Positions 5,541 through 34,859 of a DNA stretch of 36,164 nucleotides are shown piece by piece. The DNA is taken from positions 1 to 36,164 of IMG/VR virus record IMGVR_UViG_3300020465_000051. One strand, given 5' to 3'. Each line of letters starts with the position of its first letter. Within the stretch, counting starts at the first letter, position 1. Under the pieces are notes generated by a model. That model had not been told where the DNA came from. It did no database searches and saw only the letters and a list, made by a program, of their open reading frames with translations. The DNA comes from a virus. The translations under genes and the position numbers were made by a program.

Positions 5541-5541
5541 A

Positions 5542-6534
5542 ATGATAAATAAAAAACAAATAGATCCTAGAAAACCGATACCAGCAAGTGGTTATAATCG
5601 TTTAAGAGAAAATCTTAAATCAGGTTTTGCTGATGGATTTCCTGTTGAAAATTTTCCAAATCCTGATAATAGACCTAATATAAATAAAGCAAGAATAACT
5701 ACAAGAAAAGACGATAAAGTACAGGATATATCTATAGGTTTACAAGACCATGATGAAGCTATAATGTATTATTTTAATGAAGTTATAAAACCTTCAGTTA
5801 TTATAAATGGTAACAGAACTAAAGTTCCTGTAATTTATGGAGCTCCTGAAAGATGGAAAGGTGTTCAATTAGATGGTTTTTATAGAGATAAAGAGGGAAA
5901 AATACAAGTTCCTCTTATTATGTTTAAAAGAGATAGTGTTGAAAAAAGAAGAGATTTAGGAAATAAATTAGATGGTAATAATCCTCAATTATATTATACT
6001 TTTCAAGAAAAATATACTAAAAGAAATCAATACGATAATTTTTCTGTTTTACAAAATAGACAACCTCAAAAAGAATTTCATGCAGTTGTAGTACCTGATT
6101 TTATTAAATTATCATATTCTTGTATAATTTGGTGTGATTATATAGCTCAAATGAATAAACTAATTGAAATGATTAATTATACTTCAGATAGTTATTGGGG
6201 AGATCCAGAACGTTTTAAATTTAATGCAAAAATAGATACGTATAACAATACAACAGAAATAGCTCAAGGAGACAATAGAACTGTTAAAACTGATTTTGGT
6301 TTAACTCTTCAGGGATATTTAGTACCGGATAGCATTAATAAAGAATTGACTAAAAAACCACAGAAATTTTTTAGTAAATCTACTGTTGTGTTTAAAACAG
6401 AATTAGTAGTAGAACCTTCAGGGAAACCTTTAGATAGAGAAGCTGTTAGAAAAACAGCAGGTGCACAAAATATAAAACAAGAAGGAAAAGGTATTGGTTA
6501 TGATAAATTAGGAAAAAATAATAAGATAGGATAA
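5542..6534 (+). CDS. 15: Tail completion / sheath terminator, T4 gp15-like
   Basis: 330 residues (T4 gp15 is 272). It matches the gp15 pattern in order: NRTKVPVIYGAPERWKGVQL (T4: RVPITYASKEHF), a PLIMFKRDSVEKRRDLGNK segment (T4: LPRINLHLVDF), then VPDFIKLSYSCIIWCDYIAQ with MNKLIEMINY (T4: PSPIKMIYELSIFTRYEDDMFQIVEQI), and a late segment GLTLQGYLVPDSI (T4: SLTFEVNGWMYPP). gp15 caps the finished tube and sheath and makes the head-joining surface. The C-terminus is Lys/Gly-rich and probably flexible. One base separates it from the following fiber gene, so it is probably in the same operon as genes 13 and 14. Confidence 0.75.
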   Translation: MINKKQIDPRKPIPASGYNRLRENLKSGFADGFPVENFPNPDNRPNINKARITTRKDDKVQDISIGLQDHDEAIMYYFNEVIKPSVIINGNRTKVPVIYGAPERWKGVQLDGFYRDKEGKIQVPLIMFKRDSVEKRRDLGNKLDGNNPQLYYTFQEKYTKRNQYDNFSVLQNRQPQKEFHAVVVPDFIKLSYSCIIWCDYIAQMNKLIEMINYTSDSYWGDPERFKFNAKIDTYNNTTEIAQGDNRTVKTDFGLTLQGYLVPDSINKELTKKPQKFFSKSTVVFKTELVVEPSGKPLDREAVRKTAGAQNIKQEGKGIGYDKLGKNNKIG

Positions 6535-6535
6535 A

Positions 6536-10928: not shown

Positions 10929-11921
10929 ATGCCAATATTTACATCATTAATTACAGGTAGTAGTCCATTAGTAATATCATCATCAGTGATAAACATTAAT
11001 GCTACGGGAATTAAAGGCCAAGAAGTAACAGGATCTTTAAATATTACTAAAAATATAACAGCGTCTAGATTTTGTGGCACAAATGGAGTAAACATTTATG
11101 TTACTGGATCTGATTCATCCAAAGGATTATTCTTAGATGTAGCTGGTAACATAACAGCTTCAGGTAATATAAGTGCTAGTATTATTGGAGCTACAGGTTC
11201 TTTTGGACATATATTTTTACATGATGGTGATTTTAAAATAGGAACAGGAAATAAATATCAGCTTTTACCTTCATCAGGTACTGGAAGATTTGAAATATCA
11301 TTAGGTACTAATAATGGAAGAATACATTATGAAAATGGTCACCTACGTCTATCTAGTGAAACTGAAAGAACATTATTATCTGATAGTAGTATTCAACTAG
11401 GAGATGGTATAGGAACAGATTTAGTATCAGTATCTGGAAGTTTAAATGTATCCGGAAATTTAGATTTTAAAAGTTATCACCATGGTAAAGGAAAAATAAT
11501 AGGAGCTAAACAAGAAGTAATAGCCGTAAACAGCACACCTTTTAACGCTCAAGTATCATCGTCAGGAGCTATATATATTGTATCTTCATCAGCAGGAGCA
11601 CTTACTTTTTCACTACCACCAGTAGTAAGTTCTTCAGGTGTAACACTTACATTAATTACAGCTGATAATACTTCTCATATAGTTTCTCAATCATCAAATG
11701 ATAGTGCAACAGGACGCCAATCTAAAATTTATGGAAGTATACAAATAGTAACAGGATCTACTGCTTTAGCAGGATCGGGTTCTATTCCAGTACTAGCACA
11801 AGGAAAAATTACATTTGGTAGTACTAATGGTATAGGCCAAAGATTAGAATTTGTAGGAGATGGAACTCATTGGTATGTTAAAGGATTTTGCAATACAGCA
11901 CCAACAACAGCAGCTAAATAA
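10929..11921 (+). CDS. Short fiber protein sharing its C-terminal domain with the first fiber
   Basis: 330 residues, one base after the previous gene. The N-terminus (MPIFTSLITGSSPLVISSSV) is followed by one GNITASGNISAS unit and a beta-rich middle. The last about 130 residues, from GAKQEVIAVN to the end, are clearly paralogous to the end of the gene at 1-3444: both have QVSSSGA, a L.LPPV segment, IITxDNxxHI(I/V)SQS, KIYG.I, TNGIGQ and FVGDGT(N/H)WYV. This is probably a globular receptor-binding or trimerisation head shared by a long and a short fiber. Confidence 0.75.
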   Translation: MPIFTSLITGSSPLVISSSVININATGIKGQEVTGSLNITKNITASRFCGTNGVNIYVTGSDSSKGLFLDVAGNITASGNISASIIGATGSFGHIFLHDGDFKIGTGNKYQLLPSSGTGRFEISLGTNNGRIHYENGHLRLSSETERTLLSDSSIQLGDGIGTDLVSVSGSLNVSGNLDFKSYHHGKGKIIGAKQEVIAVNSTPFNAQVSSSGAIYIVSSSAGALTFSLPPVVSSSGVTLTLITADNTSHIVSQSSNDSATGRQSKIYGSIQIVTGSTALAGSGSIPVLAQGKITFGSTNGIGQRLEFVGDGTHWYVKGFCNTAPTTAAK

Positions 11922-18286: not shown

Positions 18287-20929
18287 ATGGCAGAACAAAT
18301 AATTTCACCAGGTGTATTTACCCGAGAAAATGATCAAACATTTTTACCCCAAGGAGTAGGACAAATTGGAGCAGCAGTAATTGGACCTACAAAACAAGGA
18401 CCAGCTTTTGTTCCTACAGTAGTAAGAAGCTTTGCTGAATATCAAAGGATATTTGGTCCCCAATATGCAGGATCATTTGTACCTCAAACAGTAAGAGAAT
18501 ATCTAAGAAGTGCAGGATCAGTAACAGTATGTAGAGTACTAGCAGGAGGAGGATATGATTATACTACTTCTAATAGATTCTTTTGTTTACTTGCAAGTTC
18601 ATCAGCAAATGATACATCTACAGAAACAGCACAAAAACTTAGAACAGGAGATCATCCAACAACTTTATTAACCGTATTATTACCTTCAAAAGCAACTTCT
18701 ACACCAGATTTAGGAGCAGGTTCAGACATAGCTCACAATACATTAACTCCAGATTCTACTTTAGGTACTGGTAGTTTATTATCTGATTTCCGTTTAAGAT
18801 TAAGAGATACAGCAAATAGTACTATAACTTCTACTGAACTAGCTTTAAGTATGAATCCAGTTCATGATAATTATGTAGAAAAAGTATTAGGAACTAATCC
18901 TGAAAATAGTATAACATCAGTAACTGATTATGCAGGTACTCCTGCTTTTGTATATGTTAATTTTAAAAATCTTACTAAAAGAGTATTAGCATCAGGTAGA
19001 GGTGAATTGGGAGGATATGGTTCTACAAACCCAGAAAATGTAGGAGCAGAATCTGTAGACAAATTAGGAGGTCTTAGTTCAGGATCTAAATTAATATCAG
19101 CTTCTAATGTAAGCACAGTATCTTTTAATGGAATAGGAAATACAGAAGGATATAGTCAAGCAACAACTCCATGGGTAGAATCTCAATTTTTAGGAGGTGT
19201 AGGATCTAATATAGGAACAACAAAGAAATTATTTAGATTTCATACATTAGCTCATGGAAGTGATTTAAATAAAAAATATAAAATAAGTATAGCTAATTTA
19301 AGAGAACCAGCAGATATTGATGGTGAAGAACAATATTCAACTTTTTCAGTAATATTAAGATCATACGGTGATAAAGATACTACACCACTTATTGTTGATC
19401 AATTTCCTAATGTAGATCTAAACCCAGAAAGTTCAAGATATATTGCTAGAGTAATTGGAGATAGACATCCATTATATAATGATACTTTAGAAAAAATAGA
19501 AATGTTAGGTGATTATCCTAATATATCAACTCATGTTAGAGTAGAAGTAGCAGACACAGTTAAAGCAAAAGCACTTTCACCTAAATTATCTCCTAAAGCA
19601 TTTGCAGCAGTATATAACCCAATTCCAACTTCTTCTTTAAGTACAGCTATAAGAGGTAAAGCAAAATTAATATTCCCTTCAGCATCATATGAAGGAACAC
19701 AAACAATAGGTGGAGTTTATAATGAAAGATGTTATTTAGGATGGCAATTTGAAGATAAAGAATCAGATAATAAAAATTTCCACTTACCATTACCAACTGC
19801 TTTAGAATCAAATGTATCAGGTAAATTTAGTGTTGAAAATTTCTTTGGCCATGCAGATTCAGGATTATGGACAGGTTCATTAAGTGCTTCACTTGATGTA
19901 ACAGGAACAAATGGTCCAACAAATTCTCAGTTAAAATTTTCAATTCCTTTCCAAGGAGGTGATGATGGTATAAGACCTGATATTCCTATTAGAGTAGGAA
20001 ATGAAAGCACTTTAAGTACTGCTTATTTAAATAAAACTAATTTATTTGGGTTTAATGTAAGCTCTACATCAGCTGCAGGATATAAAGGATATAAAAAAGC
20101 AATAGATTTATTATCTAATCAAGACCAATATGATATCAATATGTTAGCATTACCTGGTGTAATTCACTCGTTACATTCAAGTATAACTAATAGAGCGATT
20201 GATATGGTGGAAGGAAGAGGAGATGCGTTTTATGTCATGGATTTAGACTTATATAACGTTAGTGTAAACACGGCAATTCAAAGTGTTAGTGGATTAGATA
20301 CAAATTATGCTGCTGTATATTACCCGTGGGTAAAAGTATTAGATACAAGTAGAAATGTACCAGTATTAGTCCCACCATCAGTAATAGTACCAGGAGCAAT
20401 AGCTGCTTCAGATAGAATAGCTGCTGAATGGTTTGCACCTGCAGGTTTAAATAGAGGAGTTTTAGGAAATGTAAGAGAAGCTAAAACACAATTAACTCAA
20501 GCAGAAAGAGATAAATTATATGATGAAAAAATTAATCCAATAGCAACATTCCCTCAAACAGGAGTTTGTATTTGGGGTCAGAAAACGTTACAAGAAAGAG
20601 CAACTGCTCTTGATAGAATTAATGTTAGAAGATTATTAATTACTCTTAAGAAATTTATAGCAAGTTCTACAAGATATTTAGTATTTGAACAAAATACACA
20701 AGCAACAAGAAATAGATTTTTAAATATAGTAAATCCATATTTAGAAACAGTACAACAACAACAAGGATTATTTGCATTTAGAGTTCAAATGGATGAAAGT
20801 AATAATACACCAGATGTTATTGATAGAAATCAATTAGTAGGTGCTATTTTCTTACAACCAGCAAGAACTGCAGAATTTATAATCCTAGACTTTAACATTT
20901 TACCAACAGGAGCAACATTTCCTTCATAA
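18287..20929 (+). CDS. 18: Contractile tail sheath protein, T4 gp18-like
   Basis: 880 residues (T4 gp18 is 659). The start ISPGVFTRENDQTFLPQGVG, followed by AAVIGPTKQGPAFVPTVVRS and FAEYQRIFG, is the classical N-terminal signature of phage sheath proteins. The C-terminal about 130 residues (INVRRLLITLKKFIASSTRY, NTQATRNRFLNIVNPYLETV, and a final VGAIFLQPARTAEFIILDFN) match the conserved sheath C-terminal domain that makes the inter-subunit mesh. The extra length lies in the middle (about residues 100-600), a typical place for surface-exposed inserts. The tail tube gene follows, as in T4. It should polymerise around the tube and contract at infection. Confidence 0.97.
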   Translation: MAEQIISPGVFTRENDQTFLPQGVGQIGAAVIGPTKQGPAFVPTVVRSFAEYQRIFGPQYAGSFVPQTVREYLRSAGSVTVCRVLAGGGYDYTTSNRFFCLLASSSANDTSTETAQKLRTGDHPTTLLTVLLPSKATSTPDLGAGSDIAHNTLTPDSTLGTGSLLSDFRLRLRDTANSTITSTELALSMNPVHDNYVEKVLGTNPENSITSVTDYAGTPAFVYVNFKNLTKRVLASGRGELGGYGSTNPENVGAESVDKLGGLSSGSKLISASNVSTVSFNGIGNTEGYSQATTPWVESQFLGGVGSNIGTTKKLFRFHTLAHGSDLNKKYKISIANLREPADIDGEEQYSTFSVILRSYGDKDTTPLIVDQFPNVDLNPESSRYIARVIGDRHPLYNDTLEKIEMLGDYPNISTHVRVEVADTVKAKALSPKLSPKAFAAVYNPIPTSSLSTAIRGKAKLIFPSASYEGTQTIGGVYNERCYLGWQFEDKESDNKNFHLPLPTALESNVSGKFSVENFFGHADSGLWTGSLSASLDVTGTNGPTNSQLKFSIPFQGGDDGIRPDIPIRVGNESTLSTAYLNKTNLFGFNVSSTSAAGYKGYKKAIDLLSNQDQYDINMLALPGVIHSLHSSITNRAIDMVEGRGDAFYVMDLDLYNVSVNTAIQSVSGLDTNYAAVYYPWVKVLDTSRNVPVLVPPSVIVPGAIAASDRIAAEWFAPAGLNRGVLGNVREAKTQLTQAERDKLYDEKINPIATFPQTGVCIWGQKTLQERATALDRINVRRLLITLKKFIASSTRYLVFEQNTQATRNRFLNIVNPYLETVQQQQGLFAFRVQMDESNNTPDVIDRNQLVGAIFLQPARTAEFIILDFNILPTGATFPS

Positions 20930-20979: not shown

Positions 20980-21465
20980 ATGGCAATTCTCAATACAAAT
21001 GAAATGATGTTTACAGCATTTGAACCTAAACTACAAAATAGGTTTATAATGTTTATAGATGGAATCCCAGCATACCTTATCAAAAAAATAGCTCGTCCAA
21101 ATATTACATTTGGAGAAGTAGTTCTTGATCATATTAATGTGAAAAGAAAAATTAAAGGTAAAGCTAATTGGGAAAACATAACATGTGAATTATATGATCC
21201 AGTAACTCCATCAGGAGCACAAGCAGTAATGGAATGGGTTAGATTATCACATGAATCAGTAACAGGTAGAGATGGTTATAGTGATTTTTATAAAAAAGAC
21301 GTTAGAATCAATACTTTAGGACCTGTAGGTGATGTTGTTGAAGAATGGATTTTAAAAGGAGCTTATTGTCAAAATGCTAATTTTGGTGATATGGATTGGA
21401 CTTCAGATACTCCAACTTCAATATCAATGACTATAGTAATGGATTATGCTATTTTAAATTATTAA
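20980..21465 (+). CDS. 19: Tail tube protein, T4 gp19-like
   Basis: 161 residues, almost the same as T4 gp19 (163). The core contains LQNRFIMFIDGIPAYLIKKI, RPNITFGEVVLDHINVKRKI and NITCELYDPVTPSGAQAVME, followed by WVR.SHE, and the C-terminal half ends with a WTSDTPTSISMTIVMDYAIL segment typical of T4-type tube proteins. It forms stacked hexameric rings inside the sheath through which DNA passes. It follows the sheath gene directly, with its own upstream octamer and a strong terminator after it. Confidence 0.95.
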   Translation: MAILNTNEMMFTAFEPKLQNRFIMFIDGIPAYLIKKIARPNITFGEVVLDHINVKRKIKGKANWENITCELYDPVTPSGAQAVMEWVRLSHESVTGRDGYSDFYKKDVRINTLGPVGDVVEEWILKGAYCQNANFGDMDWTSDTPTSISMTIVMDYAILNY

Positions 21466-21482
21466 TATTATATATTTTACTT

Positions 21483-21511
21483 AAAGAGGTGCTATTTTTA
21501 GCACCTTTTTT
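21483..21511 (+). terminator. Intrinsic terminator after tail tube gene
   Basis: GGTGCTA (21488-21494) pairs with TAGCACC (21499-21505) around a TTTT loop and is followed by six T. Flanking A and T bases extend the stem. This is a classical bidirectional-looking Rho-independent terminator that closes the sheath-tube unit. Confidence 0.85.
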
Positions 21512-21558: not shown

Positions 21559-22305
21559 ATGGAAAATAAACAACAATTCCCGACTGAAGAAGTCACTTTA
21601 CCCTCAAAAGGCTTATTATATTCTAAAGATAGTCCCTTAAAAAAAGGAACAATAGAAATGAAATATATGACAGCTCGTGAGGAAGATATTCTTACGAATC
21701 AAAATTTTATAAAAAATGGTACAGTAATTGATAAATTATTAGAATCTCTTATTGTTAGTAAAATTGATTATAATGATTTAATACTTGGTGATAAAAATGC
21801 AATATTAATTGCAGCTCGTATTTTAGGTTATGGTAGTGATTATACTTTTGAATATAATGGAGAAGAACATACAGTAGATCTTACAACTATTGAAGATAAA
21901 TTTTTAGATAAATCTTTAGTTAAAGATGGAAAAAATGAATTTTCTTTTACTTTACCTACATCTAAAACATCAGTTACTTTTAAATTTTTAACACATAAAG
22001 ATGAAATAGCTATTTCTAATGAATTAAAAGGACTACAAAAAATTAATAAAAATAATGTCCCTAATAATACTACAAGATTAAAACATATAATTACATCAGT
22101 AAATGGTAATTATGAAACAAAAAATGTTAGAGAATTTGTAGATAATAATTTATTAGCTAGAGATGCAAGAGCTTTAAGAAAATACATAAGTAATATACAA
22201 CCAGATGTTAAATTAGTATATGAAAATGAAAAACCAAACGGAGAAGTTACAGAAATCGCAATACCAATTGGAGTAGGCTTTTTTTGGCCTGACGCCGGCG
22301 TATAG
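21559..22305 (+). CDS. Baseplate/tail-assembly chaperone, T4 gp26-type, upstream frame
   Basis: 248 residues. It resembles the T4 base plate protein family (gp26-type): EEVTLPSKGLLYSKDSPLKK, a EMKYMTAREEDILTNQNFIK segment, VIDKLLESLI, DLILGDKNAILIAARILGYG and a late IPIGVGFFWPDAGV. In its position between the tail tube and the tape measure it probably acts as an assembly chaperone or hub component. The frame ends with TAG at 22303-22305, but an open frame in the +1 phase starts at 22277 and continues with well-formed protein sequence to 22534. A heptamer of T at 22279-22285 and a stop preceded by a palindrome lie in the overlap. The full product is probably made by frameshifting. Confidence 0.75.
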   Translation: MENKQQFPTEEVTLPSKGLLYSKDSPLKKGTIEMKYMTAREEDILTNQNFIKNGTVIDKLLESLIVSKIDYNDLILGDKNAILIAARILGYGSDYTFEYNGEEHTVDLTTIEDKFLDKSLVKDGKNEFSFTLPTSKTSVTFKFLTHKDEIAISNELKGLQKINKNNVPNNTTRLKHIITSVNGNYETKNVREFVDNNLLARDARALRKYISNIQPDVKLVYENEKPNGEVTEIAIPIGVGFFWPDAGV

Positions 22306-22534
22306 GACATCATTATTTGCCCAGATCCACGATCTAGTGTACCATGGCGGCGGTGGTTTTCAACACTCAGAGGTTTATAATATGCCCGTTTGGTTAAGAT
22401 TGTTTCATATTCAAAAAATTAATGAACATACCAAAGAAAAAAATAAAGAAATAGAAAAGGCACAAAAAGGTTCTTCAAATAGTGGAAATATATCCAGACC
22501 TAATATAAATCCTTCTTCTACTTATAATTTTTAA
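22277..22534 (+). CDS. Frameshift extension of the gp26-type gene (+1 frame), no own start
   Basis: The frame is open from 22277, just after an in-frame TAG at 22274-22276, and it overlaps the upstream gene by 29 bases. It reads YRTSLFAQIHDLVYHGGGGF, then QHSEVYNMPVWLRLFHIQKI, then a Lys/Glu-rich tail. There is no ATG before 22382. The only earlier start-type codon, GTG at 22337, falls inside the smooth DLVYHGGGGF segment, so an independent start is unlikely. The pattern (aromatic/Gly stretch, MPVWLR, charged helix) looks like the C-terminal part of a tail chaperone, and the place just before the tape measure is where lambda G/GT-type frameshifts occur. Codons in 22286-22380 are unusually GC-rich compared with the rest of the window. 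Confidence 0.65.
   Translation, partial: AFFGLTPAYRTSLFAQIHDLVYHGGGGFQHSEVYNMPVWLRLFHIQKINEHTKEKNKEIEKAQKGSSNSGNISRPNINPSSTYNF
22292..22301. repeat. Perfect 10-base palindrome next to the frameshift stop
   Basis: ACGCCGGCGT equals its own reverse complement and sits one base before the TAG at 22303-22305. A second inverted repeat, AGATC-CAC-GATCT, lies at 22323-22335. Either could form RNA structure that affects the ribosome in the overlap; this is inference. Confidence 0.5.
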
Positions 22535-22566
22535 TAAGGATATTGTGAGATATCCTTATTTTTTTC
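22533..22566 (+). terminator. Intrinsic terminator after the frameshift gene
   Basis: AATAAGGATAT (22533-22543) pairs perfectly with ATATCCTTATT (22550-22560) around TGTGAG, followed by T. The stem begins inside the stop codon of the +1 frame, which supports 22534 as the true end of the upstream coding unit. Confidence 0.85.
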
Positions 22567-22593: not shown

Positions 22594-24630
22594 ATGCCTA
22601 ACGGAGACGAAAATAATAAAAATAATAAGGGTCCTACACAAGAAGATCTACAAAATAGGCAAAAATCTATAGATCAACAAAAACAAGAAAGAGATCTACT
22701 TAATGAAACCTTAGCTACTATTAAAGAAAGAGCAATAGTAGATAAAAAAAGAATCACAGAACTAAGAAATTCCGTAGATATTCAACAAGATATATCTAAT
22801 TCTATTCAAACTAGTAAAAATTTAAAAACAGAAATAAGTAAGTTAGATGCTAGAGCTAATAAAGATTTAATTAATAAATTAAATAAAGAAAAAGAAATAC
22901 ATGAAGCAAAAACTAAGCAATTAATTAAAGAAAATGAAGTAGCAAAATCATTTGAAAAGAATTTAGGCACTGCTAACATGTTAATGGGAGAAATGTCTAA
23001 AATTCCTTTAGTAGGATCAATGCTAAATACCCAAAAGGCATCAGAAGCCATGACTGAAGAATTTGCTAAAAGTGGAGATAAAACAAAAGCTTTAGCAGCT
23101 GGTTTTAAAGAAATGGGAAAATCACTTAATGCTGCAATGGGTCCCCTTATTCTTTTAACAATTATAAAAAGTTTAGTTGAAGCTAATAAATCAGTAGTTG
23201 GTATACAAAAAGAATTAGGTATTTCTAGAGGGAGAGCAAAGGAATTAAGAGGAGAATTAGCAGCAACAGCAATGCATGCTAAAGATATAGTAGGTTCTGC
23301 AACTGCTTTAAGAATTACAACTAAAGCTTTACTAGAGTTAAATACTAAATTAAATGATCAATTTCAAACAGCAGCAGTATTTAATCAAGAAACATTAGCT
23401 CATTTAACTGACATGAATAAAGCAGGAATACTGTTAGATGATCAATTAGGTGTAGCTGCGGGTAGTGCTGCAAGAATGGGTATGAGTGTAGATCAAGCAT
23501 TAGAAGGTATTGAAGGTATTGTTAATGAATCAAATGCAGCAACAGGTGCTCAAATTAATTTAAAAAATGTAATACATGATACCCATAAAATTTCAGGCCA
23601 AATTAGGGCTCAAATGGGAGGTAATGTAATGGAAATATCCAAAGCTGTAGTTAAAGCAAAAGCTTTAGGATTTGAATTAGAACAAGTAGCAAATGCAGGT
23701 AAATCCTTATTAGATTTTGAAAGTTCTATAAATGCTGAATTAGAAGCAGAATTATTAACAGGTAAACAATTAAATTTAGAAAGAGCTAGATTAGCAGCAT
23801 TAACTGGTGATTATGAAACACTAACAGCAGAAATAGCAGCTAATGTAGGTGATTTTGCAGATTTTTCAAAATTAAATGTTTTACAACAAGAATCAATAGC
23901 AAAAGCTGTTGGTATGACTGCTGATGAATTATCAAATGCTTTATTATTAGAATCAGATAGGGCAGCAATGTTAGCAGAAGCTGAAGCTAATAATGATAAG
24001 CAGACAATTGCTATGTTAAAACAAATGGATGCTCAAGAAGAATTTAATGCAGCAGTAGAACAAATGAAACAATTATTTGTAGATATGGTAGGCCCTATAG
24101 AAGGAATAGTAAATAGAATTTCAGGTATAGCTGAATTTTTTGGCTCAGCTACAGGTAAAGCTCTTCTATTTACAGGTGCTATGGTTAAATTAGGTGCTAT
24201 TGTAGCTGGACTTTTTGGAAAATCATTAGCAACTGCTATAGCAAGTATTTATTCAGGATTTGGATTTTTAGGAATTGCAGGAGTAGCTTTAGCAGCAGGT
24301 GCTGTTGTAACTTTAATGGCTTCAATAGGTAAAGCAAAAGCAACAAAAGTTGATGATGCTATTATTGATCCTCAAGGAGGTATAGTAACTCAAGGCCCAA
24401 AAGGTACAATACAATTAAATAAAGAAGATTCAATTATAGCAGGTACTAATTTAGGAGGAGGGGGAGGAGGAAATGAATCTGAAAAATTTGATTATAAAAA
24501 AATGGCAATGGCTATGTCAAACATAAAAGTATCTACAAATATAAAACATGATTCTTTTGGAGCCAGTAGTTCAACAGGTAAAGATGGAGATTATCAAAAA
24601 ACAGCAAAATATAGTACTAAGTTTGTATAA
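22594..24630 (+). CDS. Tail tape measure protein
   Basis: 678 residues (T4 gp29 is 590). Residues 1-130 are charged and helical, rich in Gln/Lys/Glu/Asn (coiled coil). Near 180-195 is a hydrophobic helix (MGPLILLTIIKSLV). A long Ala-rich helical middle contains GAAAxxA-like small-residue stretches. At about 523-580 comes a second, longer hydrophobic region (LLFTGAMVKLGAIVAGLF through FLGIAGVALAAGAVVTLMAS). This is followed by a short basic region, a DDAIIDPQGGIVTQGPKGTI stretch, a glycine run and a polar C-terminus. Hydrophobic segments in a mainly helical protein just after the tube and chaperone genes are typical of tape measures, which set tail length and are ejected into the cell. An octamer and an AT-rich leader precede it. 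Confidence 0.88.
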   Translation: MPNGDENNKNNKGPTQEDLQNRQKSIDQQKQERDLLNETLATIKERAIVDKKRITELRNSVDIQQDISNSIQTSKNLKTEISKLDARANKDLINKLNKEKEIHEAKTKQLIKENEVAKSFEKNLGTANMLMGEMSKIPLVGSMLNTQKASEAMTEEFAKSGDKTKALAAGFKEMGKSLNAAMGPLILLTIIKSLVEANKSVVGIQKELGISRGRAKELRGELAATAMHAKDIVGSATALRITTKALLELNTKLNDQFQTAAVFNQETLAHLTDMNKAGILLDDQLGVAAGSAARMGMSVDQALEGIEGIVNESNAATGAQINLKNVIHDTHKISGQIRAQMGGNVMEISKAVVKAKALGFELEQVANAGKSLLDFESSINAELEAELLTGKQLNLERARLAALTGDYETLTAEIAANVGDFADFSKLNVLQQESIAKAVGMTADELSNALLLESDRAAMLAEAEANNDKQTIAMLKQMDAQEEFNAAVEQMKQLFVDMVGPIEGIVNRISGIAEFFGSATGKALLFTGAMVKLGAIVAGLFGKSLATAIASIYSGFGFLGIAGVALAAGAVVTLMASIGKAKATKVDDAIIDPQGGIVTQGPKGTIQLNKEDSIIAGTNLGGGGGGNESEKFDYKKMAMAMSNIKVSTNIKHDSFGASSSTGKDGDYQKTAKYSTKFV

Positions 24631-25976: not shown

Positions 25977-28529
25977 ATGGGATTAAAAAAATTACTAACA
26001 AATTTAGAACAAGGTAAATTAGCTTACCCTAATCATAATACTCCTTCATCTGTAGGAGGTTTTAATTATTCAGAAGCTTCATCTATATTTGATTCAGGAA
26101 TGACTTTTAATCAAAGATCTTTTAGTTGGGGTAATGATGAAATTTTTAATGGTGATAGTGGAGAACCTTTTATTAGAGATGAACTTTTACCTGATAGGTT
26201 TGAAAATTTTGATCAAAGTACTACTTTAGGTGGTCAAAAAGCCAATAATGTAAGAGGAGGCATAACAACTTTAAATGATAGAAATAGATTAGACTCTAAA
26301 AGAATACGAAATTTTATGGCCTCCCCTAGAGGTTTACAATGGAAACTTACACAAGTAGGTTTACAATTATCTAATCCAAAACCAAGCGAACCTGGTATAG
26401 AAGCAGGCCCAGCAGGAATCAGTTCAGTTGCTAATGATAGTTTATATAATTTAGGAATAAATACAGAAGCCCAAATAGCAGCAAACCCAACTCTTACAGG
26501 ATTACATGTTAAAAGAGGAGGAGCTACACCTTTATCATTTGAAGGATATGATGATGAACCAAAAATAAAATATGATTTAACTAATCAAGCGGGTGATTTG
26601 ACAATACACCCAAATAGAATGATTAATTTATATGGAAATCATATAAAACCTGCAGTACCTCAAGGAGGAGAAGGTTTACCTAATGATGAACCTTCATGGT
26701 TTGAATCTACTTTTTTAGGAGGAAAAGATTTCATGACAGAAACAGCTTTAGGAAGATCACTTGGTAATATTATAGGTAGAAATGAAAATGTTGCAGAATT
26801 ATATAAATATGGAGGTGGACCTGGATCAGTATATGGAATAGGTACTACTACTATTAAAAAATATGCCCCATTTGTTGCTGATAGATTTACAGATACAGCT
26901 AAAGAATTAATTCCAAAATTTGATAGTTTTGGAGAATTAGACCGTGAAATACCAAATGGTCACTTTAAAATACTTAAAAGTAAAATTAGATTCCAACCTA
27001 ATTATCCTATGATCCTAAAAGGAGCATTAGATATTGATGGACTTGATGCATCACTTGATAGTACACTTTACACTGAACGTAATGTAGTTTTAAAAACTCA
27101 AACAGGAATGTATAGAAATTTAATGTCAAGAAGAGGAGGTGTATATACTGGAAAAGACATAAAAGATTTTAGACAGTTAGTAGGAGAACTTGGTTCTGAT
27201 TATACTAAAAGTCCAGCAGTATCAGGAATTCGTGGTGGAGGATCACGTACATATGTTGGAGGAGACCCAGGAGCAACGCCTCCTCAATATTGGTATCCAA
27301 ACGAAAGATCTAATAAAACAAGAATTAAAACGGATGAAGGAAACAATATGGCTTACTCTGTATATTTCCCACAAAGTGTAAATAAAATCAATATGATGGA
27401 TATATTTGAATCTCAAGGAGATTTTTCAAATGACGATTTAAGAGATTTTATACCATTTAGATTTGAGGCTATTAACCATGATGATCCTACTAAAGCAAAT
27501 ACAATGGTATTTAGTGCTTATTTAGATTCTTATAATGATGATTTTAATGCTAGTCATAATGAATTTAGATATAATGGTAGAGCTGAACCATTCTATACTT
27601 ATGAAGGTTTTAATAGAAGTATAGGTCTTAGTTTTAAAATAGCAGCACAAACTCGCCATGAATTAATACCACTTTATAGAAAATTAAATTATTTATGTGC
27701 TCAAACTGCTCCCGAATATAAAGGAGGAAGAATGAGAGCCCCTTACGTTCGAATGACTGTAGGAGATATATGTTATAGAGTTCCTGGATTAATGGAAAGT
27801 GTTGGTTTATCTTGGAAAACAGATTACCCTTGGGAAATAGCTAGATTAACAGGAGATCAGTTATCTGATAGTAATAAAAAAAATGGTCGTCCTTTAGATG
27901 ATGATGTATTAATGTTACCTCATGTTTTAGATGTAAATGTTTCATTTAAACCATTACATAACTTTACTCCTCAAAGAAGTGTCAATGCACCATTTATATT
28001 ACCACATGCAGGAGAAAATAGAAAAGTATATGGAGATAGAGCTAATAGAAAAGCAGTTCCTTTAGGAAATGATGGAAAAATAGACACTCAAACAGCACTA
28101 TCACATGGATATGAAGAATCAAATAAATTAAATGATGGGGAAATATCAATTGAACCAATAACACTACAAAAAATACCTGTTTCAGAACCACAATTTATAG
28201 ATTTACCAATATTAGAAAGTCCTACAAATGACAGTACTAAAAATAGTAATATTATTAATCAACCTAATCCTTCTACATTTGTTCACCACCAAAATAGAAG
28301 TGAGGGAGCAGGAGGTCCTATGTTTGTTGATCTTCCTCAAAATGTAATAGACGCAAATACTCCAGCAAGCCAACCAGCTAAATCAGGGGTTCCAGGTTCT
28401 TCTAATTTTTGGGCAAATGCTGCAGCAAATGCTCAAATCCTTACAGAACAACAAAATCAGGAAATGGAAAATCAAAATAATTTTGAACAACAACAATCAG
28501 GACAAGCTTATAGTGAATTTCCAAAATAA
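25977..28529 (+). CDS. Large baseplate protein with tube-like domain (gp48/gp54-type role possible)
   Basis: 850 residues. Near 105-135 is an RLDSKRIRNFMASPRGLQWK segment with TQVGLQLSNP. The best-conserved-looking part (about 460-665) contains LRDFIPFRFEAINHDDP, AYLDSYNDDFNASHNEFRYN, GRAEPFYTYEGFNRSIGLSF, KIAAQTRHELIPLYRKLNYL, a YVRMTVGDICYRVPGLMESV segment and TDYPWEI. This has the look of tail-tube or baseplate-tube-initiator folds (T4 gp48/gp54 type): a beta barrel with a long helix and a closing loop. The C-terminal 80 residues are Asn/Gln-rich and likely flexible. The exact T4 counterpart is uncertain. It starts 10 bases after the previous gene and 14 bases before a LysM-type baseplate gene. 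Confidence 0.7.
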   Translation: MGLKKLLTNLEQGKLAYPNHNTPSSVGGFNYSEASSIFDSGMTFNQRSFSWGNDEIFNGDSGEPFIRDELLPDRFENFDQSTTLGGQKANNVRGGITTLNDRNRLDSKRIRNFMASPRGLQWKLTQVGLQLSNPKPSEPGIEAGPAGISSVANDSLYNLGINTEAQIAANPTLTGLHVKRGGATPLSFEGYDDEPKIKYDLTNQAGDLTIHPNRMINLYGNHIKPAVPQGGEGLPNDEPSWFESTFLGGKDFMTETALGRSLGNIIGRNENVAELYKYGGGPGSVYGIGTTTIKKYAPFVADRFTDTAKELIPKFDSFGELDREIPNGHFKILKSKIRFQPNYPMILKGALDIDGLDASLDSTLYTERNVVLKTQTGMYRNLMSRRGGVYTGKDIKDFRQLVGELGSDYTKSPAVSGIRGGGSRTYVGGDPGATPPQYWYPNERSNKTRIKTDEGNNMAYSVYFPQSVNKINMMDIFESQGDFSNDDLRDFIPFRFEAINHDDPTKANTMVFSAYLDSYNDDFNASHNEFRYNGRAEPFYTYEGFNRSIGLSFKIAAQTRHELIPLYRKLNYLCAQTAPEYKGGRMRAPYVRMTVGDICYRVPGLMESVGLSWKTDYPWEIARLTGDQLSDSNKKNGRPLDDDVLMLPHVLDVNVSFKPLHNFTPQRSVNAPFILPHAGENRKVYGDRANRKAVPLGNDGKIDTQTALSHGYEESNKLNDGEISIEPITLQKIPVSEPQFIDLPILESPTNDSTKNSNIINQPNPSTFVHHQNRSEGAGGPMFVDLPQNVIDANTPASQPAKSGVPGSSNFWANAAANAQILTEQQNQEMENQNNFEQQQSGQAYSEFPK

Positions 28530-28543
28530 TTAAAATTAAAAAT

Positions 28544-28861
28544 ATGCCAAGTAGACTAGCATTCGTAAGTAAACAAAGAATAACACCTCAAGGTAAAAGA
28601 AAATATAAAGATATTAAATATCCAGATATATCTTTATCTGAAAATGATATTTATATTACAACTACTGTTGGTGATAGATTAGACACACTAGCTCAAATGT
28701 TTTATGGAGATGTAGATTTGTGGTGGATAATAGCAACTGCTAATGTTGATGTTATAAGACGAGATAGTTTTGGGGTAAAAACAGGAACCCAAATAAGAAT
28801 CCCATCAGATTTTCAAGGTATAATATTACGATTTGAAGAGTTAAATTCAATTAAAAAATAA
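28544..28861 (+). CDS. 53: LysM-like baseplate wedge protein, T4 gp53-like
   Basis: 105 residues. The second half shows a LysM-like pattern: DIYITTTVGDRLDTLAQMFY, followed by GDVDLWWIIATAN and, after a loop, GTQIRIPSD. A strand, a (V/D)GDRLDxLAxxFYGDxxLWWxIAxAN helix pair and a final GxxIRIP strand are characteristic of gp53 and tail protein X-type baseplate proteins. It probably joins wedges or binds peptidoglycan during assembly or infection. It lies between two large baseplate genes with gaps of 14 and 6 bases. Confidence 0.8.
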   Translation: MPSRLAFVSKQRITPQGKRKYKDIKYPDISLSENDIYITTTVGDRLDTLAQMFYGDVDLWWIIATANVDVIRRDSFGVKTGTQIRIPSDFQGIILRFEELNSIKK

Positions 28862-28867
28862 AAAGTT

Positions 28868-31800
28868 ATGTCAATATTTAAAGAAACATTTAAAGGCTAT
28901 GTAAAACGTCAATTAAGAATAAGAGAATCAATTCTTTCACAAGGTAATGATTTAAAAGATAATAGATTTAAAGCACATAAAGCTCAAAATCAATTAGATT
29001 ATAGAGAAGAAGCAGCTATATTACCTCCAGGAGCTTTTTTTACATATACAGCAGAAAGACAATGTATGATTAGAATGATGTCAGGAGTAGATTTACTTGA
29101 AACTAATAAAATATTAGATGGAACTAAATTTGAAAAGATTGATGATTTAAAAGGTCCTGGATTAGCTATGAGATATATGTTAATGGGAGGTATTCCTGTT
29201 AAAAATTATGATTTTAAAGCAGGTAGAGATTATATAGATACAACCCCAAATCCAGAAGCTCAACAAGTATACACGTTAGATCCTTTTGGAGAACCCGGAA
29301 ATCCTGATAGATTTGTAAAACCCCCTATACAAATGGCTAGTAGAGGAATGGCTAGAAAAAAAGGATCTTTTGGAAAACATTATTCTGCTACATATGGTGA
29401 TCCTTATATAAGATCAGATGCATCAGAAGGAGATGATTTTGGTATTGTACCTATGCCTGGTATTGTATCAGCTAATATTAGAACAAAATCAGCATATGGT
29501 TCTCTTAGAGAAGCTAAAGTAGAATTTGCTTGTCATAATAGAAGACAACTAGAAGTCTTAGAATTACTTTATATGAGACCAGGATTTCCTGTATTACTAG
29601 ATTGGGGGTGGTCAGTATATTTTTCTAACGATGGGAAAAAAGAAATTTTTTTCCCTTCTATAGATACCTTTTGGGATACTAATGTTACTATAGAAGAAAT
29701 TAATTCAGACATTATAAAATATAAAAAACTAACATCAGGTAACTATGATGGGTTTTTAGGAATGTGTAAAAATTTTGAATTTGTAGCAAGACCAGATGGA
29801 GGTTATGATTGCACTACAGAATTAATAGGATCAGGTGAAATTATAGAATCCCTAAAAGGAAGAAGATCAGGAAAACGTATTTCAAAAGTAGAAAAAGATG
29901 GAGAAGAAGAAAAAGAAAGATCAAAAAAGGTAGAAGTAGATGATTTAGAATATTATATAGCCGCAATAGTACAATTTGCTGAAACTAGAACTAAAAGAAT
30001 ATCAGATTCTAGTTATATTCAAGAAAATCCATACCAATTAAGTTTATATGCAGATTTTAGAAAATTTGCTAATGATTATGTAGAAAAAAACGATGGCAAA
30101 ATAGGAGATTACAAATTAACAGATGGAGAATTTCAAGCATTAGCAGATGAATCAGATAGAATGGATAATCCTAGTGGAATTTTTGGGGGTGTAAATGGGA
30201 GTAAAATTAGAGATGATATAGAAGAAATAGAAAGATTAATAGATGCTTACTATATATATAAAGGTGAACCTTTATTTAGAGGTTCTAATGAATTAGAAGC
30301 TAGAATGGCATCTAAAGAAAACTATATAAGATGGGATTTCTTTGCTCATATATTAAATATGTTTGTAATAGATAGACAAGGAACATCAGAAAATCCTATG
30401 TTACGTCTTACAACACGATACAATGAAACAAGTGAACCACTTACATACACACAAATTAAAGTAACTAAGCCAACATCGGTTATGAATGCACCTTGGTTAG
30501 CAGATGAACCATCAATGATATACATTAAAGGTGATTTTTGGAAACAACATTTTAAAGATCTACAATACACTAAAACAATTAGAATTCCTGACTTAGTAGA
30601 TATGTCTGTAGATCCACTTATTTGTTTATTACCTCACCAACTCCAAAAATTACAAACACATTCTCATGATGGTAGTTTAAAAACCCCAAATCAACCAACC
30701 ATTCAAATGGATCCAGGTAAAATTCCAAATAAAGCTACAGGTTTTAGAACAACAACAGGTTGGGTTCAAGGTAATAGAGAAATAGGAAATATATTTCTTA
30801 ACATAAGCCATATTAAAGAAGTTTTTCAATCAATGAGATATAATGATGAAGGATTAAATCCAAACTTTAATTTATTTGACTACCTAAAAAAAATATGGGA
30901 TGATGTTAATAGTGCATGTGCAGGAACACATACTTTTACACTTCAATCAGAACATGAAAGACCTAATTATATTAGAGTTATAGATTTAGGATTTCAAATA
31001 GATTCTGGTTTAGCATATGAAAATTTATTTACATTAGACATTCAAAGTAATACAACTATATGTAGAGAATTTAATTTTAATACAACAATCCCTAATGCTT
31101 TAAGCTCAACAATAGCTATAGCAGCTCAAAATCCAGATTCTATTACAGATTTAGAAGCAGCAAGTTTTTCTGCATTACACACAGACATTCAAAGTAGATT
31201 TTTTAAACCTTCAGCTATAACAGATACAGAAAGAGAACAAAAAAGAAAAAAATATCAAGAAGATTTAGAAGATTTTAAATTAGATATAGCAAAATTATAT
31301 GTGTATAGAATTGATGTATTAACAGGAGATTATACAATAACAGGAGAAAATAAAAAATTAAATAGAATTTCTAAAAATAAAGCTATATCAATAGTAAAAG
31401 GTTTAGAATCAAAAATAATATCTTTAAATGCAAGATACCATAAAGATGATCTAACTGCAGATCCACCTCAATATGAAGGTTTTAGAGACCCAAATTACTC
31501 ACAAGGAAGATCAGAAATAATACCATTAAAATTTAATGCAAAATTTGATGGAATATCAGGATTAACAATAGGTAATGTTTTTAAAATTAATAAACGAAGA
31601 TTACCTAAAGGATATCAAGGAGAAGATATAGGTTTTATTGTTATGGGAGAAAGTCAAAATATAACTTCAGGCCAAGATTGGACTACAGAAATATCGGGTC
31701 AACTAATTTTATTAGATAACCCTCAATCTCTTAATGAAGAAAATTCAGAATATGAATATTCAGCAGCTCGTGGACAGGATAATATAGATCAAATGGAAGG

Positions 31801-33088
31801 TCTTCAAATAGAAAATCCAGAAGCAACATTAGATGAACATTCTAATGATAACTTAATTCAAGAATTTATAGATGAAGGAAAAACAGATATTTTGAAAAAA
31901 ATATTTGAAAATTATGAATACCTTTTTTATGAAAAATGTCGTTATCAGCTTACTGTAACAACTTGGAATGTTGCAGGTAAAAATAAACATTCACCATTTG
32001 GTCAAAGTCCTGATGGATATGCTAGAGATTTTGGTGAAGGAAATATAGATGATATTTCTAGAGCGTCTTGGGGTAGAAATGGAAAACAAGTTGAATGTTC
32101 TCCTGCTACTGGTAATATAGCTATAGGTCCATTTGAGCTAGAGACATTTTGGGATGCTAGAGAAGGAGGTATTTATGGAGATCCTACACATTGTAAATCT
32201 TGGTGGATGGATAAAAGTCTAAACCCAGGTGGAGGTACCCAGGCTCACAGCCACCCTGCTCCTTCATTTATTGATTGGAGAACACCTCCTGCAGGTGTAT
32301 TAAGTGCAGATGCAGTACAAACAGGTTGGGTAAATTTTGGAATAGAACGCGAAAGATATGAATATAGTAAAAGTGATCATGAAACGGGCACACATGGTTC
32401 GAATAATGTATGGTGGTCAGGAGGATGTGGAGTTTCTAATGCTGCTCAAGCACAATGGGTACTTGAATGTTTTGGTGTAGGTGATGCATCTATGGGTTTA
32501 TATCCAGGACATGTTACAAATCCTAAACCAGCCCATCATAGTTATAGGACTAGAAAGGATAGATGGAGTACTCATTATGAAGACGAGGGAGTTGAATATA
32601 ACGATATTATGAATATAAGAGGTACACCAAATCATTTTGCTATTGGAAATCCAGCAGGTGGAAATAATTTAGTAGGTGCTTGGAATGTTCCTAACGAAAG
32701 AAGATATACAAAAATGACTTTACAAGAATATAAAAATTGGATATATTTAATATTTTCATATTATTTTGCTCAAGCTCAATTTAAAGAAACTCATACGGGA
32801 TATACTTTTGAAGGTGTTGCAACTGGAAAAGATCCTAAAAATGATTATGATGAAAAAAATGCCCATAGAGGTACAGGACAAAGAATTTTCCCTAATATTA
32901 GCCCAGGAACTCCTCCTTCAGGTGATGCAGTAGCTTTAGGGATTAAAAGTACAATAGCTAAAGCAAGGCTATCTAAACAATTTGCTGATAGAGGATTACT
33001 TGCTGGAAATACAGAAGGTGTACCTTTAGGTGGAGCTGATTATTATGGAGGTGAATTCCATACAGGAACAATTTTAAGACCAAATTAA
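28868..33088 (+). CDS. Giant baseplate hub-like protein with unknown C-terminal extension
   Basis: 1406 residues, the largest protein of the window. At about 195-255 it reads MPGIVSANIRTKSAYGSLRE, AKVEFACHNRRQLEVLELLY and MRPGFPVLLDWGWSVYF, and at 295-320 MCKNFEFVARPDGGYDCTTE. This resembles the central hub (gp27/VgrG-type) proteins of marine T4-like phages as I know them. About 660-990 contains further hub-like beta domains (SHIKEVFQSMRY, IRVIDLGFQID, PLKFNAKFDGISGLTIGNVF, SGQDWTTEISGQLILLD). From about 1014 to the end lies a different region rich in Trp, His and Gly, with three Cys in 1060-1210, HSH at 1127-1129 and GGCGVSNAAQAQWVLECFG around C1187. No clear T4 gp5 lysozyme signature was found. 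The protein probably forms the tail needle base; the C-terminal part may be an enzyme. Confidence 0.7.
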   Translation: MSIFKETFKGYVKRQLRIRESILSQGNDLKDNRFKAHKAQNQLDYREEAAILPPGAFFTYTAERQCMIRMMSGVDLLETNKILDGTKFEKIDDLKGPGLAMRYMLMGGIPVKNYDFKAGRDYIDTTPNPEAQQVYTLDPFGEPGNPDRFVKPPIQMASRGMARKKGSFGKHYSATYGDPYIRSDASEGDDFGIVPMPGIVSANIRTKSAYGSLREAKVEFACHNRRQLEVLELLYMRPGFPVLLDWGWSVYFSNDGKKEIFFPSIDTFWDTNVTIEEINSDIIKYKKLTSGNYDGFLGMCKNFEFVARPDGGYDCTTELIGSGEIIESLKGRRSGKRISKVEKDGEEEKERSKKVEVDDLEYYIAAIVQFAETRTKRISDSSYIQENPYQLSLYADFRKFANDYVEKNDGKIGDYKLTDGEFQALADESDRMDNPSGIFGGVNGSKIRDDIEEIERLIDAYYIYKGEPLFRGSNELEARMASKENYIRWDFFAHILNMFVIDRQGTSENPMLRLTTRYNETSEPLTYTQIKVTKPTSVMNAPWLADEPSMIYIKGDFWKQHFKDLQYTKTIRIPDLVDMSVDPLICLLPHQLQKLQTHSHDGSLKTPNQPTIQMDPGKIPNKATGFRTTTGWVQGNREIGNIFLNISHIKEVFQSMRYNDEGLNPNFNLFDYLKKIWDDVNSACAGTHTFTLQSEHERPNYIRVIDLGFQIDSGLAYENLFTLDIQSNTTICREFNFNTTIPNALSSTIAIAAQNPDSITDLEAASFSALHTDIQSRFFKPSAITDTEREQKRKKYQEDLEDFKLDIAKLYVYRIDVLTGDYTITGENKKLNRISKNKAISIVKGLESKIISLNARYHKDDLTADPPQYEGFRDPNYSQGRSEIIPLKFNAKFDGISGLTIGNVFKINKRRLPKGYQGEDIGFIVMGESQNITSGQDWTTEISGQLILLDNPQSLNEENSEYEYSAARGQDNIDQMEGLQIENPEATLDEHSNDNLIQEFIDEGKTDILKKIFENYEYLFYEKCRYQLTVTTWNVAGKNKHSPFGQSPDGYARDFGEGNIDDISRASWGRNGKQVECSPATGNIAIGPFELETFWDAREGGIYGDPTHCKSWWMDKSLNPGGGTQAHSHPAPSFIDWRTPPAGVLSADAVQTGWVNFGIERERYEYSKSDHETGTHGSNNVWWSGGCGVSNAAQAQWVLECFGVGDASMGLYPGHVTNPKPAHHSYRTRKDRWSTHYEDEGVEYNDIMNIRGTPNHFAIGNPAGGNNLVGAWNVPNERRYTKMTLQEYKNWIYLIFSYYFAQAQFKETHTGYTFEGVATGKDPKNDYDEKNAHRGTGQRIFPNISPGTPPSGDAVALGIKSTIAKARLSKQFADRGLLAGNTEGVPLGGADYYGGEFHTGTILRPN

Positions 33089-33089
33089 A

Positions 33090-34859
33090 ATGGGATATTT
33101 TCCAAAATCTAAAATAAATGTACTAGAAACTAGTGGTGGTGACTTTATAATTAAAGGTTCAGACAGACCATACACAGGTAAATATATAGCAACTAGTGAT
33201 AACAAATATTATGCTGGTTCAAATCCATCAAAATTAGGAATAGAATTAGAAAAAGCACAACCAGGTGAAGGAAGTAACATGGGGAATGATCGTAATGTGA
33301 AAATGTATAATCTTTTAAAAAAACAAAAACATATTTTTCTTAGAGGAAGAAAATCAGCTGATTCAAAAAAACCATCACCAACTGAAGATGATTATAAAAG
33401 AGGATTTTTTGTAAGATATTTTATGAAAAAAGTAAATGATCATTCTTACATAGAAATAGATAAAAAAACATATGATGATTTTTACAATGAAAATGATTAT
33501 AATTTATTTACTGTAGGATCATTACAATGGGCTCTAATAGGAGATGTAAGAAAAGTTAATCGTAAAACTTTAAACCGATTAGAACAAAGTCATTCTGACA
33601 TATCTTTATTATTTTTTATTTTAGATGAATACTCAACTCCTGCATTGCAAGAAGGATTATCTACTAGAGGAGGAGAATTATATTATAAAGATGGAAGAGA
33701 ATATACGGGTCATTATCATATACATCCCGTAATGGGTCCCATAGAAGGATCTATACCTGAAGGTGTTAGTCTGGAAACACCATCAATAACTCCAATATTA
33801 GATAGAACTTATCCTGATGATTCAAACATACCTGTAAATTTACCTGCTTCATACGCTTTACCTGTAGGAGAAGCACATGAACAAAATCAAAATTGTGTTG
33901 GTTGTTATTTTTTTCATAAAAATGTTTGTCATAAATGGAAAGCTTCTGTAAGAGCCACTTACTGGTGTCAATCTTTTATTATTATGAAACAAGAATTAGA
34001 TTATGCTAATGAATTCAAATCAGCTAGAAATGAAGATGAAGCTCAAAGAAATAGAATAATAAGAAGAATTGAAGAAGATTTTCAAGAAAGAGGTAATTTT
34101 AACCAAAATGAACTTCAACAAGCTATAGACCAAGCCCTCATAGAAGCAGGATTAGAAACTCCTGCAACTTTAAGACTTAAAAATTCTATAAGAGATGCAG
34201 AATATATTCCTCCAGGAAATCAAATAGGTAAATCATCCATAATTATACCTCCACCTATTGAACCAGAAGAACCACAAATCCAATCAATAGAAGAATATTT
34301 TGATACTTATGGAATTGATCCAATGGCTCAAGAAACTTTAAGATTAGAAGAATTAGAAAGTAAAAGACAAACTCTACTAAATAAAATTAGAATGGAAAGA
34401 ATAGAAGCAATTAAAGGCGCTTTATTATATGAGGGAAATCCCGTTTTCAACACTAATTTTTACCCAAGTAATACTACAGGTTACATAAGATATCTTATGA
34501 AAGGACTTGCTAGAAAACAATATTTTTCTAGGGATGCTAATGGATTTAATTATACAAGAGCAAATACTATAAAAGAAAATGATTTTGAAGCAATCCAACC
34601 TCCTACTTATATTTTAGAAAATTCTATGAAATCACCTGTATATTTAGAAGAATTAAGACCTTATGACATTCAAATATCTCAATATCCTGGTTTTGAAGGC
34701 CATTTAAAATTAATGACATCAAATCCTCCTGTAGTAACAGCAGAACAACGAAAAGAAGGAGATGAACAAAGAATTTACTTAAGATCATTAAGAAAAGAAT
34801 TAAAAAAATATAAAACAAATGTATACTTTGGGGGTATAGGTTCAGGATTATCATACTAG
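33090..34859 (+). CDS. Baseplate/virion protein with four-cysteine motif
   Basis: 589 residues, one base after the hub gene. The N-terminal 60 residues (SKINVLETSGGDFIIKGSDR, PYTGKYIATSDNKYYAGSNP) and the later YTGHYHIHPVMGPIEGS look like repeated phage structural modules (Y+G.YH....G...(T/E)G). Residues 269-293 form C-x2-C-x7-C-x12-C (C269, C272, C280, C293) with His at 276 and 281, ending VRATYWC. Similar Cys clusters occur in marine phage baseplate proteins and could bind Zn or an Fe-S cluster. The C-terminal 250 residues are Glu/Arg-rich helices followed by a mixed domain. The exact function is unknown; the location suggests the outer baseplate or a fiber attachment site. Confidence 0.7.
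   Translation: MGYFPKSKINVLETSGGDFIIKGSDRPYTGKYIATSDNKYYAGSNPSKLGIELEKAQPGEGSNMGNDRNVKMYNLLKKQKHIFLRGRKSADSKKPSPTEDDYKRGFFVRYFMKKVNDHSYIEIDKKTYDDFYNENDYNLFTVGSLQWALIGDVRKVNRKTLNRLEQSHSDISLLFFILDEYSTPALQEGLSTRGGELYYKDGREYTGHYHIHPVMGPIEGSIPEGVSLETPSITPILDRTYPDDSNIPVNLPASYALPVGEAHEQNQNCVGCYFFHKNVCHKWKASVRATYWCQSFIIMKQELDYANEFKSARNEDEAQRNRIIRRIEEDFQERGNFNQNELQQAIDQALIEAGLETPATLRLKNSIRDAEYIPPGNQIGKSSIIIPPPIEPEEPQIQSIEEYFDTYGIDPMAQETLRLEELESKRQTLLNKIRMERIEAIKGALLYEGNPVFNTNFYPSNTTGYIRYLMKGLARKQYFSRDANGFNYTRANTIKENDFEAIQPPTYILENSMKSPVYLEELRPYDIQISQYPGFEGHLKLMTSNPPVVTAEQRKEGDEQRIYLRSLRKELKKYKTNVYFGGIGSGLSY

Follow-up and report, generated by a model that had tools for sequence, protein, structure and literature searches.

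Probable programmed +1 ribosomal frameshifting in a T4-type tail-assembly chaperone gene of mostly marine phages

In a viral DNA stretch of 36,164 nucleotides (IMG/VR record IMGVR_UViG_3300020465_000051; hereafter, the window), a gp26-type gene ends at a stop codon while an overlapping frame carries on beyond it, which raises the question of whether the two frames are read as one protein and, if so, by what means. The original prediction had proposed that a programmed frameshift adds a C-terminal extension to the product of this gene, and the conservation of the arrangement in 126 distinct junctions among relatives supported this proposal. The explanation that we consider highly probable is that programmed +1 ribosomal frameshifting makes two tail-assembly chaperones from one gene, a short form of 248 aa and a long form of 324 aa.

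Overlapping frames at the end of a tail gene

On re-reading the sequence, the ORF coordinates, the TAG end and the open +1 frame at 22277-22534 given in the original prediction proved exact, and the seven T that it had claimed were present at 22279-22285, inside the overlap of the frame-0 and +1 ORFs. The frame-0 ORF of the gp26 type (21559-22305, plus strand) reads GGA GTA GGC TTT TTT TGG CCT GAC GCC GGC GTA TAG at its end, with the stop codon at 22303-22305. The +1 frame is closed by a TAG at 22274-22276, is open from 22277 onward and ends with a TAA at 22532-22534. Because the +1 frame is open only from 22277 and frame 0 ends at 22305, the shift must fall within 22277-22305. A -1 slip leads to a TGA at 22290-22292, and this direction is blocked, as had been predicted. 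From 22286 to 22305, frame 0 reads (T)GG CCT GAC GCC GGC GTA TAG and the +1 frame reads GGC CTG ACG CCG GCG TAT AG. The extension had also been described as having no credible start, and this was borne out among the 126 relatives, in which the sole common start codon in its frame is the ATG of 'YNMP', approximately 32 codons in and inside the conserved core.

Table 1. Coordinates of the features at the junction, in its neighborhood and in related phages
Feature	Position	Strand	Evidence
Tail sheath gene	18287..20929	+	PF04984 E 1e-15, phrog_23 E 2e-72
Tail tube gene	20980..21465	+	phrog_4542 E 4e-28
Probable intrinsic terminator between tail tube gene and chaperone gene	21483..21510	+	terminator scan
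Short tail-assembly chaperone (TAC-N, predicted), 248 aa, end GVGFFWPDAGV	21559..22305	+	phrog_150, PF12322, fold
Long chaperone (TAC-NC, predicted), 324 aa	21559-22534	+	frame-0 part plus extension
Codon 5' of shift site, GGC	22276..22278	+	third base C/G constrained across relatives
Putative shift site TTT TTT T (stretch without flanks: CTTTTTTTGGCCTGAC)	22279..22285	+	TTT[T/C]TTT in 126/126 distinct junctions; in-frame TTTTTTT depleted elsewhere
Dual-coded overlap	22286..22305	+	low synonymous difference; CCT invariant 126/126
+1-frame C-terminal extension, 82 aa plus stop	22286..22534	+	open, conserved in all relatives
Probable intrinsic terminator after chaperone gene, 12-bp hairpin plus U run	22533..22566	+	-12.1 kcal/mol, z -4.1
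Probable tape measure gene, 678 aa	22594..24630	+	position; long coiled-coil-like, hydrophobic protein (by eye)
-1 jumbo-phage junctions (LR756511, Atu_ph07, RAS14)	L156:3145-3200, L157:2444-3520, L158:2429-3489		
Extension annotated as hypothetical protein	L063:4854-4964, L060:5746-5982, L061:4809-4928, L157:3388-3510, L158:3322-3489		

The short protein matched phrog_150 (baseplate hub; E 5e-11) and PF12322 (E 9e-4; 19.5 bits, under the cut-off of 24.5). Its AlphaFold model (pLDDT 90.5) matched T4-type baseplate hub and assembly proteins in BFVD, with E values down to 1e-18, and of the 990 PDB chains aligned with it, the two that ranked highest were YqbN (3klu, Z 5.4), a tail chaperone, and the HK97 tail assembly chaperone (2ob9, Z 4.6), these two PDB matches being weak in absolute terms, with Z scores below the level that is safe alone. 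When the fused alignment was compared by hhalign with T4 gp26 or gp51 as single sequences, no signal was obtained; the link to gp26/gp51 rests on phrog_150, PF12322 and the folds, which place the short protein in the T4 gp26/gp51 family. The predicted function of the window gene is best read as that of a TAC-N/TAC-NC gene. The short part and the extension were folded separately, not as a fusion, and the extension was modeled as a small three-helix domain (pLDDT 76) with no clear match in the PDB. It scored 25.0 bits against Pfam DUF6760 (PF20546; E 2e-5), under the curated cut-off of 27, and when 8 genomes and 14 controls were searched for the DUF6760 family, no match appeared anywhere.

The genomic place had been described as that of lambda G/GT, and this agrees with what we found: the gene sits between the tail tube gene and the position of the tape measure, as G/GT genes do. 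The 22594-24630 protein had no family match of its own in Pfam and PHROG searches, and the gene at the equivalent place is annotated as tape measure in phages immuto and LIS04. A terminator had been predicted at 22533. The hairpin there is real, its 12 bp spanning 22533-22560 right after the extension stop, but a comparable hairpin follows the stop in just 41 of 124 relatives. A simple terminator scan missed it, probably because of its few G-C pairs. Considering the probable terminators on both sides, the chaperone gene may be a single-gene transcription unit. Elsewhere in the window, the large late-gene proteins (28-3444, 4989-8575, 10929-11921 and 25977-34859; up to 1406 aa) showed no informative PHROG match, and the first of these genes (28-3444) matched two families whose function is unknown, both weakly.

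Conservation of the split and selection at the junction

A scan with the frame-0 protein yielded 59 viral loci, and the frame-0 ORF was conserved in 58 loci. At 55 of the 57 loci inspected, the frame-0 protein stops within a few codons of TTT[T/C]TTT and the +1 frame carries on; the remaining two (L058 and L059) are remote and possess TTT_CTC in its place. An extension-only scan, which matched patterns well 3' of the shift site and was independent of the upstream gene, found an upstream ORF in the frame needing +1 at all 80 retained loci, indicating that the split is not due to chance. When both scans were pooled, 126 distinct junctions were obtained, with the heptamer TTTTTTT in 116 and TTTCTTT in 10, and TTT[T/C]TTT was found in all 25 clusters after collapse at 70% nucleotide identity. 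The TTTCTTT form, present in 3 of these 25 clusters, contains no T run above three. Related contigs had been proposed as the place to seek the same split, and it is present both in these 126 junctions and in separately sequenced isolates, namely Flavobacterium phage immuto (TTTCTTT) and Microcystis phage Mel-JY01 (TTTTTTT). Across the relatives, the extension carries the motif FFGLTPxYR...QIHxxVFHGxGG...VYNMPxWLR. As far as sequences can tell, it is nearly certain that a large group of phages, related to T4 and mostly marine, has conserved the frameshifted coding arrangement. The host of the phage is probably a member of Bacteroidota, because the bacterial assemblies with matches include Flavobacteriales MAGs. 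In deposited records, the extension stands as a separate hypothetical protein, mostly cut to an internal start (Table 1).

Pairwise pN/pS was 0.50 upstream of the site and 0.44 over the first 36 columns of the extension past the overlap. The synonymous difference was 0.14-0.28 at approximately codons -4 to +4 around the site, compared with 0.4-0.75 outside, and it recovered immediately beyond these codons, so that the drop is limited to the shift site and the dual-coded overlap. The +1 codons of the overlap, GGC (4.5% of Gly in window usage), CTG (0.4% of Leu) and ACG (1.8% of Thr), are nearly the rarest in the window, a pattern to be expected only where frame 0 is under constraint as well. 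In addition, the frame-0 Pro codon CCT past the shift site is invariant in all 126 junctions, and the Leu read in the +1 overlap is never encoded by TTA, despite TTA being the main Leu codon. These observations indicate that both frames are under selection and that the short form, too, matters. In the codon just 5' of the site, the third base is C in 110, G in 12, T in 3 and A in 1 of the 126 junctions; AAC occurs there 66 times and AAT never, against a background in which AAT is 4 times commoner (871 AAT, 213 AAC). The C/G bias at the third base of 22276-22278 and of the same codon in relatives runs against the A/T-rich usage. Elsewhere in these phages, in-frame TTTTTTT was seen 4 times versus 14.8 +/- 2.6 expected from synonymous shuffles, and in-frame TTTTTTC was not depleted (24 seen, 24.6 expected). 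The frames, the conserved site and extension, the selection at the site, the family and the synteny are all read from the sequence itself.

We also searched for elements that might stimulate a shift. Folding across the relatives revealed no conserved RNA structure at the site (mean z -0.15 and -0.49), and neither excess folding 3' of the site nor synonymous constraint past the overlap was found. The Rfam search gave no relevant match, a Shine-Dalgarno-like element 5' of the site was not conserved (34 of 126 junctions), no slow stop codon lies at the shift site, and there is no phage tRNA gene within the window.

A +1 shift and the rival readings

Under programmed +1 frameshifting, most ribosomes would stay in frame 0 and stop at 22303-22305, producing the short form, while a fraction would shift +1 at CTTTTTTTGG (22278-22287). 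The peptidyl-tRNA(Phe) would slip from UUU forward onto the UUU that overlaps it (UUC in relatives); from there, the +1 frame would be read as ...FF-GLTPAYR..., producing the long form. By analogy with lambda gpG/gpGT, the short form would serve as a coat for the tape measure protein and the extension as the part that recruits tail tube subunits. It is the occurrence of the shift, its direction and rate, the tRNA step and the chaperone function that we infer. All of the +1 sites contain UUU_Y, that is, a frame-0 UUU codon and then a pyrimidine (126/126 junctions as well as SP-15, LIS04, GXN1, LR756508 and L058), and re-pairing of tRNA-Phe from UUU to UUU/UUC in the +1 direction fits every case, remote relatives included, while TTTTTTT alone does not tell which of the two Phe/Leu codons slips. 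Bacterial ribosomes are reported to shift +1 with particular ease on UUU_Ynn, even where the next codon is not a stop (PMC5009743).

The original prediction had left the slip as either +1 or -2. Of these, the junctions point to +1 as very likely the direction. A -2 ribosomal frameshift at the same site would reach the same frame with one extra Phe; on TTTTTTT, the Phe-tRNA of the second TTT can re-pair two bases back, and -2 shifting has been reported for Mu-like tails. However, the TTT CTT T variants (10/126) offer poor -2 re-pairing, as they would pair Leu-tRNA with TTC, or Phe-tRNA with a mixed triplet such as ACT, GCT or CCT, and the remote TTT_C sites in LR756508, L058 and GXN1 permit cognate +1, but not -2, re-pairing. 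We thus consider a -2 shift unlikely. Transcriptional slippage on the run of seven T could instead join the frames through a mixed mRNA, with one U lost or two gained, and the avoidance of in-frame TTTTTTT elsewhere would also follow from polymerase slippage. Yet the TTTCTTT junctions lack a run on which this could occur, T runs of at least seven occur at nine other places in the window, and known transcriptional slippage sites are mostly longer, all of which makes slippage quite improbable.

The fact that the frames meet at a homopolymer might suggest a sequencing or assembly error in what is truly one ORF, which the original prediction had named as the main alternative. This was refuted because the split recurs in numerous independent contigs, drawn from many metagenomes, as well as in the isolates immuto and Mel-JY01, with the run kept at seven or interrupted by C, and the frame-0 constraint on CCT past the site argues that the short form is real; the probability of such an error is negligible. 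Two separate genes, the second with an internal start at GTG 22337 or at the ATG of YNMP, would agree with the deposited annotations, in which such fragments appear as hypothetical proteins. However, GTG 22337 exists in just 40 of the 126 relatives, a start at the common ATG would drop the conserved FFGLTPxYR...HGxGG half, and conservation reaches right up to the shift site, so that this arrangement is very improbable.

Remote relatives bear on what sets the direction of the +1 shift that we favor. The remote +1 sites are TTT_CTA in LR756508, TTT_CTC in L058, TTT_T in SP-15 and LIS04, and TTT_CGT in Streptococcus phage GXN1. In the jumbo phages LR756511, Agrobacterium phage Atu_ph07 and Stenotrophomonas phage RAS14, an extension is found at the same place in the -1 frame, with sites reading T_TTT_TTC or T_TTT_TTT (U_UUU_UUY). 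With the extension profile, the extensions of SP-15, LIS04, GXN1, RAS14 and Atu_ph07 score only close to the background given by shuffled sequences, so that the grounds for their homology are position and a motif held in common. In the -1 jumbo phages, the base immediately 5' of TTT TTT is T, and the +1 group avoids T there. C or G at this position (122/126) would forbid backward re-pairing, leaving UUU_Y to shift +1, and U would create U_UUU_UUY, which would shift -1. That this base largely sets the shift direction, and that T4 replaced the shift by two genes, is a suggestion to which we give even chances, the rule being drawn from three -1 cases with weak profile homology of the extensions. 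In phage GXN1 (L155:2501-3250 and beyond), TTC TTT CGT stands at the shift position, with the same UUU_CGU as influenza PA-X, and its extension is unannotated.

Relation to known chaperone systems and implications

The locus resembles the programmed frameshift by which tail-assembly chaperones of the lambda G/GT type are made (Xu, Hendrix and Duda 2004, as cited in PMC5009743) in its place between tail tube and tape measure, in its short ORF with a frameshifted C-terminal extension, in a shift site lying close to where the short ORF ends and in an extension that is conserved without its own start. However, in lambda and the majority of such systems, the shift is -1 and takes place on tandem slippery sites, whereas the shift here would be +1 on UUU_Y; tandem -1 slippage is the commonest form, and other directions are known in the G/GT class. 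No sequence relation to lambda G/T was detected.

With T4 gp26 (short) and gp51 (long), both of which belong to PF12322 with gp51 being approximately 50 residues longer, the window gene shares the protein family, the fold and, by prediction, the occurrence of a short and a long form. In T4, these are two genes on opposite strands without a frameshift (PMC5009743; PMC10885494), whereas here there is one gene with a +1 overlap, and the T4 gp51 C-terminus did not match the extension profile. According to PMC10885494, which cites Vladimirov et al. 2022, some T4-like phages possess separate short and longer chaperone genes instead of frameshifting. The original prediction called such an arrangement unusual in T4-like myoviruses, which is true of T4 itself, with its separate gp26 and gp51, but not of the wider gp26-family group, in which frameshifting appears to be the rule.

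Shifts of +1 have been proposed in haloviral myovirus chaperones, in HSTV-2 and, at TTT-CGC, in the HF1 group (PMC5009743, PMC7230728). These are likewise myovirus tail chaperones with a +1 shift, and the HF1-group site is also UUU_C, but the hosts are archaeal and the local context differs. The influenza PA-X site is UCC_UUU_CGU (PMC3498833). Bacterial UUU_Ynn and PA-X sites share with the present one a UUU followed by a pyrimidine, a C (or G) just 5' of UUU and the +1 direction; here, in contrast, conservation extends over seven bases, and in most cases U comes after UUU. In Vandenendeviridae and Andersonviridae, the chaperone gene has a frameshift at GTTTTT (PMC12846349), similarly a poly-T site at the end of a myovirus short chaperone gene, but shifting -1; for the chaperone genes of T4-like phages, its authors also cite poly-T signals with a -1 shift.

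Almost all long-tailed phages have frameshifted tail chaperones, and T4 has been named as the exception (PMC5009743). The frameshift principle is known, but within the T4-type chaperone family its +1 form seems to be new, with Vladimirov, Gautam and Davidson 2022 (Virology 566:9) weighed through the papers that cite it. The annotation of several phage records, in which the extension is filed as a 'hypothetical protein' fragment, would be corrected accordingly. The well over 100 natural junctions provide a data set for a +1 site without a stop codon, a Shine-Dalgarno element or a visible RNA structure, and they suggest a rule for shift direction that is testable. In this phage group, the T4-type chaperone family seems to have been kept as one frameshifted gene, in the rarer +1 direction, and this one-gene arrangement supports the view that T4 gp26 and gp51 may represent the split of a formerly frameshifted gene.
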